Of a stretch of DNA of 22,636 nt, positions 99-7,774 are shown piece by piece. The notes below the pieces were generated by a model, which was given only the letters and a program-made list of their open reading frames with translations, was not told where the DNA came from and did no database searches. This DNA comes from a virus, in IMG/VR virus record IMGVR_UViG_3300047994_000330, positions 1-22,636 of that record; one strand, written 5' to 3'. Made by a program: the position numbers and the translations under genes. Numbering within the stretch: position 1 is the stretch's first letter; each line of letters starts with the position of its first letter.

Positions 99-124
99 GA
101 TGGGTGACATAGATAATTGGAAGT

Positions 125-160
125 GGGATCATCCGGGACCATACGGGATTTAATGGGACG
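125..160 (+). repeat. Four GGGA repeats at exact 10-bp spacing
   Basis: GGGA occurs at 125, 135, 145 and 155, exactly one helical turn apart, in units such as GGGATCATCC and GGGACCATAC. Mu has a comparable run of GGGAT-type motifs close to its left end, as recalled rather than aligned. This suggests a transposase-binding or end-bending element. Confidence 0.5.
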
Positions 161-162
161 AC

Positions 163-183
163 TTCATTGAAAACACTCAAAAA
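163..183 (+). promoter_or_regulatory. Candidate MuA-type transposase binding site
   Basis: The stretch reads TTCATTGAAAACAC followed by an A-rich tail. It resembles the core of Mu transposase sites (roughly TTTCATTGAAAATACGAAAA, recalled from phage Mu). The transposase here is a clear MuA homologue, but its end-binding domain has diverged, so the match may be partly chance. Confidence 0.3.
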
Positions 184-631: not shown

Positions 632-1210
632 TCAGGGTGTACCTGGCCAATTATCGACCAGAGAATAGGGAAATTTTCCCGAATCCTGGGTGCTTCTGAT
701 CACGGGCACGAGCGCATTCATCGAGTAGAGCTGTGCCAACGATCGATCCGAGGCCGATAACGGCCAGCAGCCGTTGTTATATTGATCGAGGTCGTTCTCG
801 CTGATGCCATGTGAGGCCGTCATCATTATGGCGATGCGCCATGCGCAGCTGCGCACTGGATTCGGCTGAACACCGGCTACGGAACTCGAGCCACCAGCCA
901 AGACGGTCGCAATATTATCTTGCGAGTTTTGGTCGCCATGGAAGGCAGCGATATAATCCAGGATGAACCGCTTTTGCTGAAATAGGCAGCCTTGATCCTC
1001 TTTTGTCGGGCATGGCGCGAGGTATTCACGTGCGCCGAGCGCGATACCCGAATGAGCCTTGACGAAGGATATGGTCTCCGGCGTTTCCCCCTGAAAGAGA
1101 TCGACCACATTGCCAATATATACGCCATCCCGCCAGCTCTGGCTGCCGGCAAGAGCACCATGGGCCATAAATATGAATGGCAGCGAAATTAGGCTCAGCC
1201 CGCGAATCAT
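632..1210 (-). CDS. Exported cysteine-containing protein of the lysogeny operon
   Basis: A 192-residue protein that I do not recognise. The N-terminus has a basic residue, a hydrophobic stretch and an A-L-A signal-peptidase site near residues 19-21, so it should be exported. The mature part has four cysteines (in CPTKEDQGC, SCAW and GCW contexts), suited to two disulfides in the periplasm. Its ATG overlaps the repressor's TGA by four bases, so it is translated with the repressor and should be made by lysogens. In other phages this position often holds lysogenic-conversion or superinfection-exclusion genes, and that is my inference here. The gene looks more AT-rich than the structural genes, as expected of a recently gained cargo gene. 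The Rap1a/Tai immunity fold was considered, but its cysteine pattern was not matched. Confidence 0.75.
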   Translation of the reverse strand: MIRGLSLISLPFIFMAHGALAGSQSWRDGVYIGNVVDLFQGETPETISFVKAHSGIALGAREYLAPCPTKEDQGCLFQQKRFILDYIAAFHGDQNSQDNIATVLAGGSSSVAGVQPNPVRSCAWRIAIMMTASHGISENDLDQYNNGCWPLSASDRSLAQLYSMNALVPVIRSTQDSGKFPYSLVDNWPGTP

Positions 1211-1656
1211 TTGGAAGCGACATCCTCACCTTGGAATTCAATGGGGGCATCGGGCAGGCTGCGCTGCACGCTGGTGATGTATGACGGGCCGATATAGTGC
1301 AGCACTTCTGCCAGCGTCGGACTCTGCTTGATCTGCTGATAGAAGTCCTGGCAGCTGCGGATGAAGACGAAAAGGCTCCAAAAATGAGCCGGCGCCTCCA
1401 TGATCTGCCGCTCCAATATCGGCAGAGGAGGAACGGGTGCCGCCGCGGCAGCGGCCTTGTTACCCCATGCCAGCCAATCAAGAGAAACCGAGCAGGCCGA
1501 TGCGATGGCGCTGAGCTTGGTAAAGCCGGGGTCGCTGCCGTTCATATAAGAATACAACGTACTGACGGCGACGCCTGATTTTTTAGATACAGCCGCCGGG
1601 CCGCCCGCATCCCTTACGGCTGACGACAGCCGCGCGGCAAAATCATCTTCAACCAT
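1207..1656 (-). CDS. Cro/CI-type HTH phage repressor
   Basis: This 149-residue protein has an N-terminal helix-turn-helix of the XRE type at about residues 8-60 (GGPAAVSKKSGVAVSTLYSYM, then a helix leading to SLDWLAWG). The C-terminal half carries no visible LexA/S24 peptidase motif, so induction by RecA-dependent cleavage is not indicated. It is the only leftward regulator and lies divergent to ner, the position of the Mu c repressor, although Mu c itself belongs to another fold. It probably represses the early promoter and holds lysogeny by binding dyads in 1657-1733 and perhaps the left-end motifs. It is translationally coupled to the exported protein downstream. Confidence 0.85.
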   Translation of the reverse strand: MVEDDFAARLSSAVRDAGGPAAVSKKSGVAVSTLYSYMNGSDPGFTKLSAIASACSVSLDWLAWGNKAAAAAAPVPPLPILERQIMEAPAHFWSLFVFIRSCQDFYQQIKQSPTLAEVLHYIGPSYITSVQRSLPDAPIEFQGEDVASK

Positions 1657-1733
1657 TGAGCGCGCGCGCCCAGAATGCTGTTGACGTAATCCAATATCTT
1701 GTACTAATTCTGTGATATTGGAGATTTGATTCT
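1657..1733. promoter_or_regulatory. Divergent repressor/ner control region with operator dyad
   Basis: This AT-rich gap separates the leftward repressor from the rightward early operon. CCAATATC (1691-1698) and GATATTGG (1714-1721) form a perfect 8-bp dyad with a 15-base spacer, a good candidate operator for Ner or the repressor. A rightward promoter may use TTGACG (1681-1686) with a -10 around TACTAAT (1702-1708), which would place the dyad over the promoter. GGAG at 1720-1723 is the likely ribosome binding site for ner and overlaps the dyad's right arm. Confidence 0.55.
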
Positions 1734-2042
1734 ATGATACTGGAAAAGCCCCTCAAAGGCTGGCATCGAGAAGACGTCAAGGCTTTGCTCCGCAAGAAAT
1801 TCGGGCCGATTTCCGCGCTGGAAAAGGCGTGGGGATATGGCGCGGGGATGATCTCGTGCGTTTTGCGCAACCCAAGACGGTCGGCGCCGCTCGCAAAAAA
1901 GATAGCTGCATCAATCAATAAGCCCCCGCATGAACTGTGGCCGGCGGTTTGGACAGCTGATGGCAGCTTCATCCCCCGGCCTCGAAAACCCCGTGTAGCA
2001 AGCCATCCAAAATTTCGCACGAATAAAAACGGGAAACTGTAA
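1734..2042 (+). CDS. ner: Ner-like early regulator
   Basis: The 102-residue protein shows the Ner/Nlp signature: WHREDVKALLRKKFGPISAL, then the recognition region WGYGAGMISCVLRN and the closing motif PPHELWP. In Mu, Ner is a small DNA-binding protein that turns down early and repressor transcription after infection starts. Here it is the first rightward gene, facing the repressor, exactly as in Mu. It is longer than Mu Ner (about 75 residues) because of a basic C-terminal tail (RPRKPRVASHPK). The ATG at 1734 has GGAG ten bases upstream. The next gene starts two bases after its stop. Confidence 0.9.
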   Translation: MILEKPLKGWHREDVKALLRKKFGPISALEKAWGYGAGMISCVLRNPRRSAPLAKKIAASINKPPHELWPAVWTADGSFIPRPRKPRVASHPKFRTNKNGKL

Positions 2043-2044
2043 GA

Positions 2045-2872
2045 ATGACCAAAAAGTTAGAAAACAGGGGCGACCTGGTAGAGGTTGGCCAGATTTTCGA
2101 GATTCCTCTCGATCTGATCGACGCCGTTGATCGTATCCGGCCGGTTGATCCGGCCAAGGCGGCCACGATTGCAAAGTCAATCGATGATGCACGGCAGATT
2201 TCGCCGATCGAAGTCCGGGCGACTGAAGGCGGCCGTTACCGCCTGGTAGCCGGCGCACACCGGATGGCCGCGTGCCAGCTGCTGGAACGGCAAACCATCG
2301 AGGCCGTCCTCTTTCAGGGATCGCTCGAGGAGGCGCGGCTTCGGGAGGTTGATGAAAACCTGTACCGGGCCGATCTCACGGCCAGCGAGCGCACATTCTT
2401 CGTGGCCGAGCGGCTGCGGTTCTTCACCTATACGGGTGGAGAGCTGCGGCGCGGCCGCGACGCACGCAAATCGGCCAACTTGGCCGATTTAGAAAATCCG
2501 CGATTTTACAAGGACGTAGAAGAGAAATTCGGCATTGCGGAGCGTACCGCGCGGCGACTTTTGCGCCGCAGCCGCAATATTGCGCCGGCACTGTGGGAGA
2601 AAATCCAGCAGGAAAACCTCGGCGATAAGGGGAACCTGCTGGACAAGGTGGCCGAGCTGGAAGCTGATGCTCCCGGCGCGCTGCTGGAAACGATGGAGCA
2701 GCGCGGCTGCACGCTGAAGGCGGCGATCTCGCTCTGCAGTGCCGGGGAAGCCAAAGACCCGCGCGCAGAACGGCTGCGCAAATTCCGCTCCCTGCTCGAG
2801 CAGGCATCGCTCGATGAGCTGAACGAGTTTCAGACCGCGCTGAAGGCGAAGATTAGGGAGAAGCGGCTGTGA
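2045..2872 (+). CDS. ParB/Srx-domain DNA-binding protein
   Basis: A 275-residue ParB-like protein. The N-terminal part (about residues 15-100) has the ParB/sulfiredoxin fold with the GAHRMAACQLL box and ENLYRADLTASER, matching the GERRxRA and ENLQRxDL motifs. An HTH follows at about 160-185 (FGIAERTARRLLRRSRNI), and the C-terminus is helical. ParB-like genes between ner and muA recur in Mu-like phages of alphaproteobacteria, as I recall. There is no ParA partner, so a plasmid-style partition role is unlikely. CTP-dependent DNA loading or regulation of transposition is a reasonable guess. It overlaps the next gene by four bases. Confidence 0.8.
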   Translation: MTKKLENRGDLVEVGQIFEIPLDLIDAVDRIRPVDPAKAATIAKSIDDARQISPIEVRATEGGRYRLVAGAHRMAACQLLERQTIEAVLFQGSLEEARLREVDENLYRADLTASERTFFVAERLRFFTYTGGELRRGRDARKSANLADLENPRFYKDVEEKFGIAERTARRLLRRSRNIAPALWEKIQQENLGDKGNLLDKVAELEADAPGALLETMEQRGCTLKAAISLCSAGEAKDPRAERLRKFRSLLEQASLDELNEFQTALKAKIREKRL

Positions 2873-3173: not shown

Positions 3174-3454
3174 TGCGGCAGGAATGGTTCACTGCGGCCG
3201 AGCTGCAGGCGGCTGGTGTCGACAAGAATATCGTCGACAAACTGGTCTATCATTTCCCAGCGATGCGGCTGGCGCGCGTCCGCACGGGCCATGATGGCGA
3301 TATCTGCAGAGCCGAGGCAGAATTCCATATTTCCGCCCTGCCGAAACGGTTTCGGCCGATGGTGGAAATTTTAGTGCCTGAGAAAATCGAGGCGCAGATC
3401 TGCCGGCTTGGAATCTGGCGTTCAGTCGATGCGATCACGGAGCGTGCTGGCTGA
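3173..3454 (+). CDS. Small DNA-binding-like protein upstream of muA (93 aa)
   Basis: The ATG at 3173 overlaps the stop of the preceding mini-gene (TGATG). An earlier in-frame start at 2969 exists but would overlap two genes, so it was not used. The N-terminus (MRQEWFTAAELQAAGV) resembles the opening of the adjacent transposase (REWFSLPELAEETLPGLP), a wHTH layout in the Mu DNA-binding family. It may therefore be a small stand-alone relative of the MuA N-terminal domain, which would interest transposition control. That relation is my inference. It ends in a TGATG overlap with muA. Confidence 0.65.
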   Translation: MRQEWFTAAELQAAGVDKNIVDKLVYHFPAMRLARVRTGHDGDICRAEAEFHISALPKRFRPMVEILVPEKIEAQICRLGIWRSVDAITERAG

Positions 3455-5394
3455 TGCAAGGCGCGCTCTCCCGCGAGTGGTTCAGCTTACCGGAACTGGC
3501 GGAGGAAACTCTGCCTGGACTGCCAGCGAGCCGCTCGAAGATGGCGGAGCGCGCGCGGCGCGAGGGATGGGACCGTACTGAACTCACGCGCAAGCGTGAA
3601 GGGCGCGGTGGCGGCCTGGAATATCATTTCAGCCTGCTGCCGCCTGAGGCGCAGACGATGTTGGCCGCAAAATATGGGCGGCCAGCACAGGATAATCAGC
3701 GCGTGGCGCGGCCGCGGGCCGGGAGTGCGGAGAGCTGGGCCTGGTATGATGCGCAGCCGCAGAACCGCAAGGATGAGGCGAAGAAGCGGGCGAGCGCCGT
3801 GGCGCGGGTGGAAGCGCTGACGCCGGAACATGGCGCGGTGCAGGCGGTGAATTTCACCGCTGATGAGGTTGGAGTGCACCCCAGCTCGATACGAAACTGG
3901 ATTGCGGCCGTGAAGGGCGTTGCGCGGGCCGACCGGCTGCCGGCGCTGACGCCGCTGGCGCGTGGCGGTGAGAAAGAGCTGCTGGAAATTGATGAGCGGG
4001 CCTGGGATTTTATTCGCGCGGATTATCTCCGCATGGCAGAGCCCAGCTATGAGAGCTGCTACCGGCGGCTTGAGACCGCCTGCGTGAAGAATGGTTGGGC
4101 ATTGCCGCCTGCCCGCACGCTGCGCCGGCGCCTCGAAGCGATCTCCGCACCCGTGCAGGTGCTGGCGCGCAAGGGCAAGGAAGCGGCTGCAAAGATGTTC
4201 CCGGCGCAGGAGCGCGACCGCTCGATGTTCCATGCCATGCAGGCGGTGAATGCGGATGGCCATAAATGGGACGTGTTTGTTTTATGGGGCTACGACGCCA
4301 AGGGGAAACCGATCATCGGGCGACCGATGATGATGGCCTTCCAGGACCTTTATTCCGGAAAATTTGTTTCGTGGCGGTATGCCAAAAGTGAAAACAAGGA
4401 GACGGTGCGGCTCGCCTTTGGCGACATGTGCTACTCCTACGGCATTCCGGACGAGTGCTATTTCGACAATGGCAGGGCCTTTGCCAGCAAATGGCTGACG
4501 GGCCGCATGGCGAACCGGTACCGGTTCACAATTCGCGATGAGGAGCCCGCGGGTATCCTCATACAGCTCGGCGTGCGGGTGCACTGGACGACGCCGTACC
4601 ATGGGCAATCAAAACCCATAGAGCGCGGCTTCAAGGATTTCGCTCAGGATATTGCGCGCGGGCCCTGGTTTCAGGGGGCATATACCGGCAATACGCCGCT
4701 GGCGAAGCCCGAGGATTACGGCAGCCGGGCAATTCCGATCGAGGAATTTAAGCGCATCGTTGATCATGAGATCATGATGCACAACCAGCGGCCGGGGCGG
4801 CGCTCGCGTGTATGCGGCGGGCAGCTCTCGTTCAACCAGGCGTTCGATGCATCGCTCGCGCTTTCCGATATTCGCAAGCCAACCGAGGAACAGATGCGCA
4901 TCTGCCTGCTCGCCGGTGAGCAGGTGAGCGTGCGTGGTACGGATGGCTCGGTGCATCTGCACCATAACCGGTACTGGCATGAAAAGCTGCTGGAACACCG
5001 GAGCGAAAAGGTCATCATCCGGTTTGACCCCGACAATATTCAGCAAGATTTGCCGGTGTACCGGCAGGATGGAACGCTGATCTGCACCGCGCTGCTGGTT
5101 GAAGCCGTGGGCTTTGCCGATGCTGATGCCGCCCGCGAGCACGCCAAGGCGAAGAGCCAGTTCATGCGTGGTGTGCGCGACCAGCGTGATGCCGAACGCA
5201 AACTTGGGCACACCCAGGTGGCAGCGCTTCTGACGGGCGGCGATATGCCCGTGCCGCAGCGCACCGCGGCCAAGATTTCAGGAAATTTGGCGTTGAAGGC
5301 TGACACGGAAATGTCGCCGGACGCCGTTGATGATTTCGACCGGAGATTCGCGGCCAGCCTGCGCAAGTTGCGCGCAGCGAACAGCGATTTTTAG
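3454..5394 (+). CDS. A: MuA-like DDE transposase
   Basis: At 646 residues, close to the 663 of MuA. The N-terminal winged-helix domain (about residues 5-75, REWFSLPELA and RAREEGWDR-like segment) should bind the enhancer. The next helical domains (about 95-230) bind the ends. The catalytic core carries all three acidic residues at nearly the MuA positions: D268 in NADGH, D338 in YFDNG and E390 in KPIERGF. The C-terminal part (about 480-646) should contact MuB and ClpX. It catalyses strand transfer for integration and replicative transposition. It starts in a TGATG overlap with the previous gene and is followed 18 bases later by muB. Confidence 0.97.
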   Translation: MQGALSREWFSLPELAEETLPGLPASRSKMAERARREGWDRTELTRKREGRGGGLEYHFSLLPPEAQTMLAAKYGRPAQDNQRVARPRAGSAESWAWYDAQPQNRKDEAKKRASAVARVEALTPEHGAVQAVNFTADEVGVHPSSIRNWIAAVKGVARADRLPALTPLARGGEKELLEIDERAWDFIRADYLRMAEPSYESCYRRLETACVKNGWALPPARTLRRRLEAISAPVQVLARKGKEAAAKMFPAQERDRSMFHAMQAVNADGHKWDVFVLWGYDAKGKPIIGRPMMMAFQDLYSGKFVSWRYAKSENKETVRLAFGDMCYSYGIPDECYFDNGRAFASKWLTGRMANRYRFTIRDEEPAGILIQLGVRVHWTTPYHGQSKPIERGFKDFAQDIARGPWFQGAYTGNTPLAKPEDYGSRAIPIEEFKRIVDHEIMMHNQRPGRRSRVCGGQLSFNQAFDASLALSDIRKPTEEQMRICLLAGEQVSVRGTDGSVHLHHNRYWHEKLLEHRSEKVIIRFDPDNIQQDLPVYRQDGTLICTALLVEAVGFADADAAREHAKAKSQFMRGVRDQRDAERKLGHTQVAALLTGGDMPVPQRTAAKISGNLALKADTEMSPDAVDDFDRRFAASLRKLRAANSDF

Positions 5395-5412: not shown

Positions 5413-6363
5413 ATGGACGTAGAGGATAACACGAAAATTCAGGCCGACCGGACGCGCGATTTGGCGCGGCAGCATCTGGCGCGGGCAAAAATCAGCCAGG
5501 CGGATATGGCGCGCCAGGCGGGGATTGCCAGCACCACATTCTCGGCCTGGCTGAACGATAAATACGCTGGGAATAACGAGGCCGTTACCGTGGAGGTGGA
5601 GAAATACCTGACGGCGCAGGCCACGCGCGGGCGCATGGCGCTGGTGGCGGCACTGCCTTTTGTGATGACGCCCACGGCCACGCGGATTTTGACGACGCTG
5701 GAACATGCGCAGTTTTTACCGGATGTGGTGGTGATTGCCGGTGAGCCGGGCACGGGCAAGACGCGCTCGATTAAGGAATATGCTGCCACACACCCGAATG
5801 TGCTTCACCTGACCGGGCAGCCCGCGACCAAGACGGCCTTCCAGGTGCTCGATGCACTGGGCAATGCGCTGAACGTGACCGAGACGACGGTGCAGCGGAT
5901 TACGCGCGGGGTGATTGCGAAGCTGAAGAACACACAGGGGCTCCTCATTTATGATGAGGCGCAGAACCTCTCGCCCGAGGCGATCGACCAGCTGCGCTCG
6001 TTCCATGACCTGGCCGGCGTGGGGCTGGTGCTGGCCGGGCATCCGGCCGTGTGGGCGAAGATCGACGGCGGCTCGCGCGGATCGAAGCTCGCCAATTTGC
6101 ATTCCCGCGTGGGCATGAATGTGAATATTCCGCGCCTGCAGAAGGAAGATTTGGAGGCGGTGCTGGATGGGATCGGCATTGCCGATGCGCAGCAGCGGAA
6201 ATTGCTGAAGCGGATTGCCAGCCTGCCGGGCGCGCTGCGCGCGCTGGATAAAGTGGTGCGCATGGCCCGGATGCTGGCCGATGGCGAGGATGCCGAGATG
6301 GCGGCCGAGCATATCATGGCGGCCTGGCACCGCTTCTCCAATGGTCAGGAGTTGGGGGCATGA
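5413..6363 (+). CDS. B: MuB-like AAA+ ATPase, transposition target selector
   Basis: A 316-residue protein, close to the 312 of MuB. An N-terminal HTH lies at about 24-52 (ISQADMARQAGIASTTFSAWL). Walker A is GEPGTGKT at 110-117 and Walker B is LLIYDEA at 177-183. The C-terminal helices correspond to the DNA-binding end of MuB. The family polymerises on DNA with ATP, delivers target DNA to MuA, stimulates strand transfer and gives target immunity. The ATG at 5413 has an AAAGGA ribosome site. The stop overlaps the next start (ATGA). Confidence 0.96.
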   Translation: MDVEDNTKIQADRTRDLARQHLARAKISQADMARQAGIASTTFSAWLNDKYAGNNEAVTVEVEKYLTAQATRGRMALVAALPFVMTPTATRILTTLEHAQFLPDVVVIAGEPGTGKTRSIKEYAATHPNVLHLTGQPATKTAFQVLDALGNALNVTETTVQRITRGVIAKLKNTQGLLIYDEAQNLSPEAIDQLRSFHDLAGVGLVLAGHPAVWAKIDGGSRGSKLANLHSRVGMNVNIPRLQKEDLEAVLDGIGIADAQQRKLLKRIASLPGALRALDKVVRMARMLADGEDAEMAAEHIMAAWHRFSNGQELGA

Positions 6364-6900: not shown

Positions 6901-7184
6901 GCCGTTGGGACAACTGGTTCAACGAAGCGTGGCGCGGCCGCTACAAAAAAACGTGGCGACAGGCGCGGCTAATGCTGGGAAAGACGGGGTATCGATCGCC
7001 GTGCCGCCCTTTGATGGCCATCATCAAAGCAAGACCGCCAGTTAAGCTGGCGGGCCTTACAGATGATCAAATCGCGTATTTTGAGCGGATGAAAGACAGC
7101 TTGGTTCGCGCCGGTGATCCGCAGCTGATGACGATCATTTCCGGTCGATCGCACATTGTAAGCGAAGGGGAATGCGTGAAATGA
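6897..7184 (+). CDS. Hypothetical basic early protein (95 aa)
   Basis: It starts within ATGA at the end of the previous gene. The N-terminal third is rich in Trp, Arg and Lys (RWDNWFNEAWRGRYKKTWRQ), so nucleic-acid binding is possible. The rest has no recognisable domain. It overlaps the methyltransferase start by four bases. Confidence 0.6.
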   Translation: MSRWDNWFNEAWRGRYKKTWRQARLMLGKTGYRSPCRPLMAIIKARPPVKLAGLTDDQIAYFERMKDSLVRAGDPQLMTIISGRSHIVSEGECVK

Positions 7185-7774
7185 CCCTCTTCGCGCGCGA
7201 GCCCTCGCCTTTCATCGCACTGCCGTCACAGCAGGCGCGGGTTATTCTGGCTGACCCGCCCTGGTATTTCAAAAACCATTCGGAGAAGGGTGAGGCGAAG
7301 AACCCGGTTGCGCATTATGACTGCATGGAGCTGGATGAAATCCAGGCGTTGCCGGTGGCCGAGCTGGCGAACCCAAATGGTTGCGCGCTGATTATGTGGG
7401 CGACGGCTCCCATGCTGCCCCAAGCCCTCGATACGATGCTGTGCTGGGGCTTCAAATATAAATCGGCCGGGGCTTGGGCGAAGCAATCCAGCACCGGCGA
7501 AAAATGGGCGTTCGGGCCGGGCTATTGGTACCGCTCAGCCGCTGAATTCTGGATTTCCGGCGTGATCGGCAAGCCGCGGATACGTTCGCACAGTGTGAGG
7601 AACCTGATCGTGGCGCCGGTGCGGGAGCACAGCCGCAAGCCTGATCAGATGAGGAGCGATGTCGAGAGCATGTTCGCCGGCCCGTATGTTGAGCTGTTCG
7701 CCCGCGAGACGGCGCCGGGCTGGAGCAGCTGGGGCAACCAGGTGGGAAAATTCGATACGGAAGCGCCGGAATGA
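7181..7774 (+). CDS. MT-A70-like DNA N6-adenine methyltransferase
   Basis: A 197-residue enzyme with the MT-A70 motif DPPW at residues 25-28 (ILADPPWYFKNH), the usual IMWATAPMLPQAL segment and a C-terminal YVELFARETAPGWSSWGNQ, the LELFAR motif of this family. It should transfer methyl groups from S-adenosylmethionine to N6 of adenine, probably in phage DNA. The start at 7181 was chosen over 7172 because AAGGGGA (7165-7171) is well spaced and the ATGA overlap with the previous gene fits the pattern. No restriction enzyme is next to it, so protection from host restriction or regulation by methylation is likely. In Mu the corresponding role is played by mom, which is unrelated. Confidence 0.9.
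   Translation: MTLFAREPSPFIALPSQQARVILADPPWYFKNHSEKGEAKNPVAHYDCMELDEIQALPVAELANPNGCALIMWATAPMLPQALDTMLCWGFKYKSAGAWAKQSSTGEKWAFGPGYWYRSAAEFWISGVIGKPRIRSHSVRNLIVAPVREHSRKPDQMRSDVESMFAGPYVELFARETAPGWSSWGNQVGKFDTEAPE

Follow-up and report, generated by a model that had tools for sequence, protein, structure and literature searches.

A Sel1-like exported protein encoded with the repressor of a Mu-like phage is a candidate periplasmic prophage exclusion factor

Why would a Mu-like phage encode an exported protein together with its lysogeny repressor? This question is raised by a virus record of 22,636 bases, the whole of which is the window analysed here. Its relevant features are:

104..176, plus strand: probable left terminus of the phage, by its resemblance to the corresponding ends of three related phage loci, L012, L013 and L014
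527..541, minus strand: weak terminator-like hairpin, by consensus only, with a T-rich tail; located some 90 nt beyond the operon on its 3' side
632..1210, minus strand: gene for the exported four-cysteine Sel1-derived protein, 192 aa; predicted signal peptide at residues 1-21; predicted disulfides C67-C75 and C122-C148
1207..1210, minus strand: ATGA stop/start overlap; translational coupling predicted
1207..1656, minus strand: CI/c-like lysogeny repressor, 149 aa; N-terminal HTH_3 and a short C-terminal region common to related repressors
1729..1756, minus strand: promoter-like match 5' of the repressor; weak, 9/12, not above chance
1734..2042, plus strand: Ner-like HTH_35 regulator, divergent from the repressor
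2045..2872, plus strand: ParB-like protein of the early operon, by domain/profile match
3454..5394, plus strand: Mu-type transposase A (DDE_2, 1.2e-44)
5413..6363, plus strand: Mu B-type transposition ATPase, by domain match

This is the Mu-type left-end layout, with a minus-strand repressor and a divergent Ner-like gene that is followed by the ParB-like gene and by transposases A and B. Since the left end of the phage is probably near 104-176, the gene at 632-1210 would be its leftmost gene. That 1207-1656 is probably the lysogeny repressor rests on synteny, namely its divergence from the Ner-like HTH_35 gene and the presence of the Mu A and B genes, and on its HTH domain (HTH_3, E = 1.3e-7). 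A first, sequence-only reading of this DNA had stated that the repressor stop and the next start overlap as ATGA, and this overlap was found at 1207-1210. Judged by gene order and by this overlap, the exported gene comes second in the lysogeny operon, after the repressor. A consensus scan around the operon gave promoter matches at chance level and weak terminator matches. The short repressors of the window and of L012-L015, L101 and L110 have in common a C-terminal PxNFxLL...CQxxF...PTLRxxLxWI and are without the S24 peptidase part. The stretch that separates the exported gene from the left end of the phage has palindromic repeats at 395-438 and 482-554 (ACCTGGGGTTGACCCCA with an inverted copy, and GAACTGTCCCGGC as an inverted pair), which are possible transposase or regulator sites, and a tandem direct repeat (CCATTGTTAGCGA/CCATTGTTAGAGA) at 603-628 lies directly 3' of the stop of the exported gene. 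The early operon includes an MT-A70-type methyltransferase at 7172-7774 (E 8.6e-25).

Translation of 632-1210 on the minus strand gives 192 aa with the N-terminus MIRGLSLISLPFIFMAHGALA followed by GSQSW and with cysteines at positions 67, 75, 122 and 148, the signal peptide being called by sequence rules and from homologues. Thus the second product has the signal peptide and the four cysteines that had been ascribed to it, and when their conservation was checked in homologues both were found to be kept at the same locus in related phages. The left-end homologues retain an export signal (Sec or lipobox) and all four cysteines, and C67, C75, A89, C122, W124 and C148 are invariant in a 16-row alignment of these homologues with the window protein. 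C122 and C148 were present in 48/48 members and C67 and C75 only ever occurred together, both being present in 35 of the 48 and both absent in 13; in a tandem array described below, one copy has lost both core cysteines together. This paired presence and absence is as expected from two disulfides, and the predicted bonds are C67-C75 and C122-C148. Because the ORF is kept at the same locus in related phages and the 4-nt overlaps recur, it appears to be more than a chance reading frame.

The sequence-only reading had also recognised no known family for this protein, and here it has to be corrected because the protein belongs to phrog_5882, a family of unknown function, and its core fold is Sel1-like. 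In a PHROGs profile search phrog_5882 matched residues 87-164 of the window protein (E = 4.5e-6), and 45 of 48 relatives matched the same profile (best 9.6e-41). Pfam, NCBIfam and PADLOC were all empty for the window protein and a search for a housekeeping homologue in them found no clear one; a nitrogenase match (E 0.63) is due to chance. The window protein gave no tblastn match in phages, and single-sequence searches of viral contigs with the exported protein, the repressor, ParB and the transposase as queries gave nothing useful, the relatives being reached only through profile searches and transposase-alignment searches. Transposase-anchored scans yielded 160 related phage loci whose ORFs were then searched by profile, and homologues were found in 16 of these loci, two of which contain the same gene, and in every case on the minus strand immediately to the left of the early operon. 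Of 397 genomes surveyed within one order, 22 were positive. With profile searches, the wider scan and the order survey taken together, the family has 83 non-redundant members, mostly in temperate phages. Two plasmid proteins and gp16 of Rhizobium phage RR1-A, which is itself included in phrog_5882, are relatives and gp15 of Mannheimia phage vB_MhM_3927AP2, found by tblastn, is a further one; the members at L002, L003 and L223 have plasmid or chromosomal surroundings in which no prophage is evident. Like the window protein, phrog_5882 members have an export signal and a CAWR...C core, whereas the window protein is extended in its N-terminal part by a region carrying the C67/C75 pair, which RR1-A has too. 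RR1-A gp16 (L004:5755-6273) has probably been annotated too short; with a start further upstream it includes a signal peptide and the C67/C75 pair.

Coupling to a repressor is a repeated feature of the family. For at least 30 of the 83 non-redundant members, a same-strand repressor is found no more than 600 nt to the 5' side. A further 14 members are oriented against both neighbours. In the transposase-anchored set the 5' neighbour is a CI-like repressor, either short or S24/LexA-like, and in some loci a single small gene separates the two; a 4-nt overlap was found at 10 of 17 curated repressor/family-gene junctions, other relatives having short gaps. The 14 members oriented against their neighbours include morons that lie on the opposite strand between the head protease and the minor head protein or beside a tape-measure gene. 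The RR1-A member is a moron, as is that of 3927AP2, which lies between its own terminators; the window gene is repressor-coupled whereas these two are elsewhere in their genomes. In one genome of the surveyed order a Mu-like prophage has eight tandem diverged copies (L207:7277-12740; G378:C1, about 1587276-1592739) flanked by portal-like and protease-like genes, and in this array the signal peptides are more alike than the mature parts, which are mostly 28-56% identical. No sign of positive selection was seen in the array, dN/dS being below 1 in every usable pair. A VapBC-like pair at 5658-6364 of L207 adjoins the array.

The position 3' of the repressor was also compared across related phages regardless of family. 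The gene tightly 3' of the repressor encodes an exported, lipo- or membrane protein in 25 of 36 cases as against 2 of 97 co-directional early-gene controls, counting non-redundant genes of 90-260 aa, and the effect size is approximate because export or TM was called by a simple hydrophobicity rule and the phages were picked by transposase likeness. When genes of the phrog_5882-type family were left out, 15 of 26 slot genes still encoded exported, lipo- or TM proteins (p about 1e-10). Comparison of 22 slot proteins among themselves gave 21 clusters, and about ten slot proteins from other phages matched nothing of known function in Pfam or PHROGs. In L007, L040, L085, L165, L140, L057, L138, L063, L122, L169 and others the slot is taken by unrelated proteins that are exported, lipo- or membrane proteins. 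The scope is wider than had been claimed for the single gene, in that the family is conserved among phages and the envelope-cargo slot that it occupies recurs. A more extended interpretation, which we offer tentatively, is that Mu-like phages of Alphaproteobacteria keep a repressor-fused envelope-cargo slot into which unrelated exported proteins are swapped, that its commonest occupant found is a widespread disulfide-stabilised mini-Sel1 family blocking phage DNA entry by binding the periplasmic injection component of the superinfecting phage, and that tandem expansions track different invaders.

The predicted structure gives the family its likeness to Sel1 proteins. AlphaFold2 with 48 sequences produced an all-helical model (pLDDT 92.4, pTM 0.88), and the 93-residue core of a short member was modelled with a pLDDT of 96.7. 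The best structure matches to the core were Sel1-repeat proteins, namely, LpnE (Z 11.4; 2.1 A over 86 residues), AlgK (10.6), c5321 (10.1), and SflA (8.7). With LceB included, the Sel1 superpositions had Z of 8.7-11.4 at 2.0-2.3 A over 81-88 residues, mostly near the C-terminus of the Sel1 proteins (the C-terminal cap), and because these values are below the Z of 13 advised for helical repeats they make a statement about fold and no proof of common ancestry. When the core profile was run against PDB sequences all matches were Sel1 proteins (best E 0.0012). Foldseek gave an E of only 0.05-0.1 on Sel1 proteins, the window protein, which has no Pfam match, did not reach the curated threshold of Pfam Sel1 (PF08238), and Sel1 Pfam matches in 4 of 30 relatives were weak (best E = 0.006). 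Since the Foldseek E is weak (0.05) and the Pfam threshold was missed, we call the protein Sel1-derived in fold and not a canonical Sel1-repeat protein. Sel1-repeat proteins have repeat arrays, whereas the core of this family consists of five helices, equivalent to roughly one and a half Sel1 repeats and not to several in tandem, with conserved cysteine pairs in addition. A fold search of BFVD gave no good match.

The location, export and family of the protein are well supported, and the question becomes what it would do in a lysogen. For a phage protein that is exported, diversifying and coupled to a repressor, the best explanation is a prophage exclusion factor acting in the periplasm, and we lean, with modest confidence, towards expression from the prophage and a mode of action resembling that of K139 Glo or TP-J34 Ltp, although the fold would be a different, Sel1-derived one. 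In lysogens the exported protein would be co-translated with the repressor, as the overlap suggests, and Sec would secrete it into the periplasm, where the two predicted disulfides (C67-C75 and C122-C148) would stabilise a small helical Sel1-derived adaptor domain. This domain would most likely bind a periplasmic component needed for DNA entry of a superinfecting tailed phage; the candidates are proteins of the phage itself (from the tail tip, the tape measure or among those ejected) and host factors that it uses. If such a component is bound, lysogens would shut out related phages against which the repressor by itself gives no protection. The sequence-only reading had suggested that the gene excludes other phages or changes the host surface, and this is partly supported because the lysogeny-operon placement, the morons, the tandem diversification and the exported slot genes fit it, while the lack of a known family that was part of it did not stand. 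No literature linking Sel1 repeats to prophage exclusion was found.

The neighbourhoods and the diversified array also fit toxin immunity or modification of the host envelope, and the dN/dS values below 1 in the array and the members outside any evident prophage likewise count against exclusion. In lysogenic conversion the protein would remodel the envelope, a periplasmic Sel1-type adaptor binding a host regulator or assembly factor so that surface polysaccharide, motility or stress response is altered and phage resistance is indirect. ExoR, like AlgK and SflA, is a Sel1-type adaptor that binds a host regulator or assembly factor. Two observations are in keeping with remodelling: the nearest fold matches are to Sel1-repeat proteins, among them several from the envelope (AlgK and the periplasmic domain of SflA), and the slot holds varied exported proteins. 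However, fold similarity is silent on function and, because the family is found at loci of several types in phages from more than one proteobacterial class, a single host-specific target is unlikely. We consider remodelling unlikely.

The eight-copy tandem array resembles orphan immunity arrays, and PA5086, PA5087 and PA5088, which are Sel1-type and annotated as immunity proteins, were among the structure matches. Together these would suit a protein that shields the lysogen from a periplasmic toxin, whether a T6SS lipase or amidase or the toxin of another mobile element. However, the matches to PA5086-PA5088 are weak (for the full model, Z 3.5-4.3 at ranks 16-28; in Foldseek, E no better than 0.54), and an effector gene was recognised beside none of the members inspected, of whose neighbours only a minority were annotated one by one. 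We take immunity to be quite improbable. The protein could also restrain a periplasmic lysozyme or transglycosylase, either that of an incoming tail or that of the host, in the manner of T4 Spackle, which blocks the T4 tail lysozyme and is itself small, helical, periplasmic and disulfide-bonded (PMC7677548). However, Spackle is absent from the fold matches and, since the window ends before the tail genes, a tail lysozyme is out of view, and we count this inhibitor role as very unlikely.

If periplasmic exclusion is the correct explanation, a large structurally predicted family would be added to the few periplasmic exclusion proteins in Gram-negative temperate phages and a common envelope fold, Sel1, would be tied to phage-phage competition. 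There would also be a simple rule to find more of them, which is to read the repressor-coupled gene in transposable phages. Among known systems, glo of Vibrio phage K139 is in a cI-orf2-glo-int lysogenic operon and its periplasmic product is annotated as involved in exclusion. Glo and the window protein, which is predicted to be periplasmic, are alike in being exported and in being encoded by temperate phages together with a CI-type repressor, but K139 is another phage type and glo is the second gene after cI. Homology to Glo was rejected because hhalign found no detectable similarity (probability 0.2%, E 0.36, 3 columns). Ltp of TP-J34, the exported product of a lysogeny-module gene, blocks the injection of DNA, and its reported target is the tape measure protein (PMC3952083); it is a Gram-positive lipoprotein with another repeat domain and is likened here by description only. 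In Fc02, a transposable phage of P. aeruginosa, an exclusion ORF is on the repressor transcript in lysogens (PMC9936078); the protein described there is of 7.9 kDa and its gene is upstream of the repressor, and the likeness is again by description only. None of the three is a shown homologue, and Glo, Ltp and the Fc02 exclusion ORF serve as precedents for the separate steps of the proposed exclusion.
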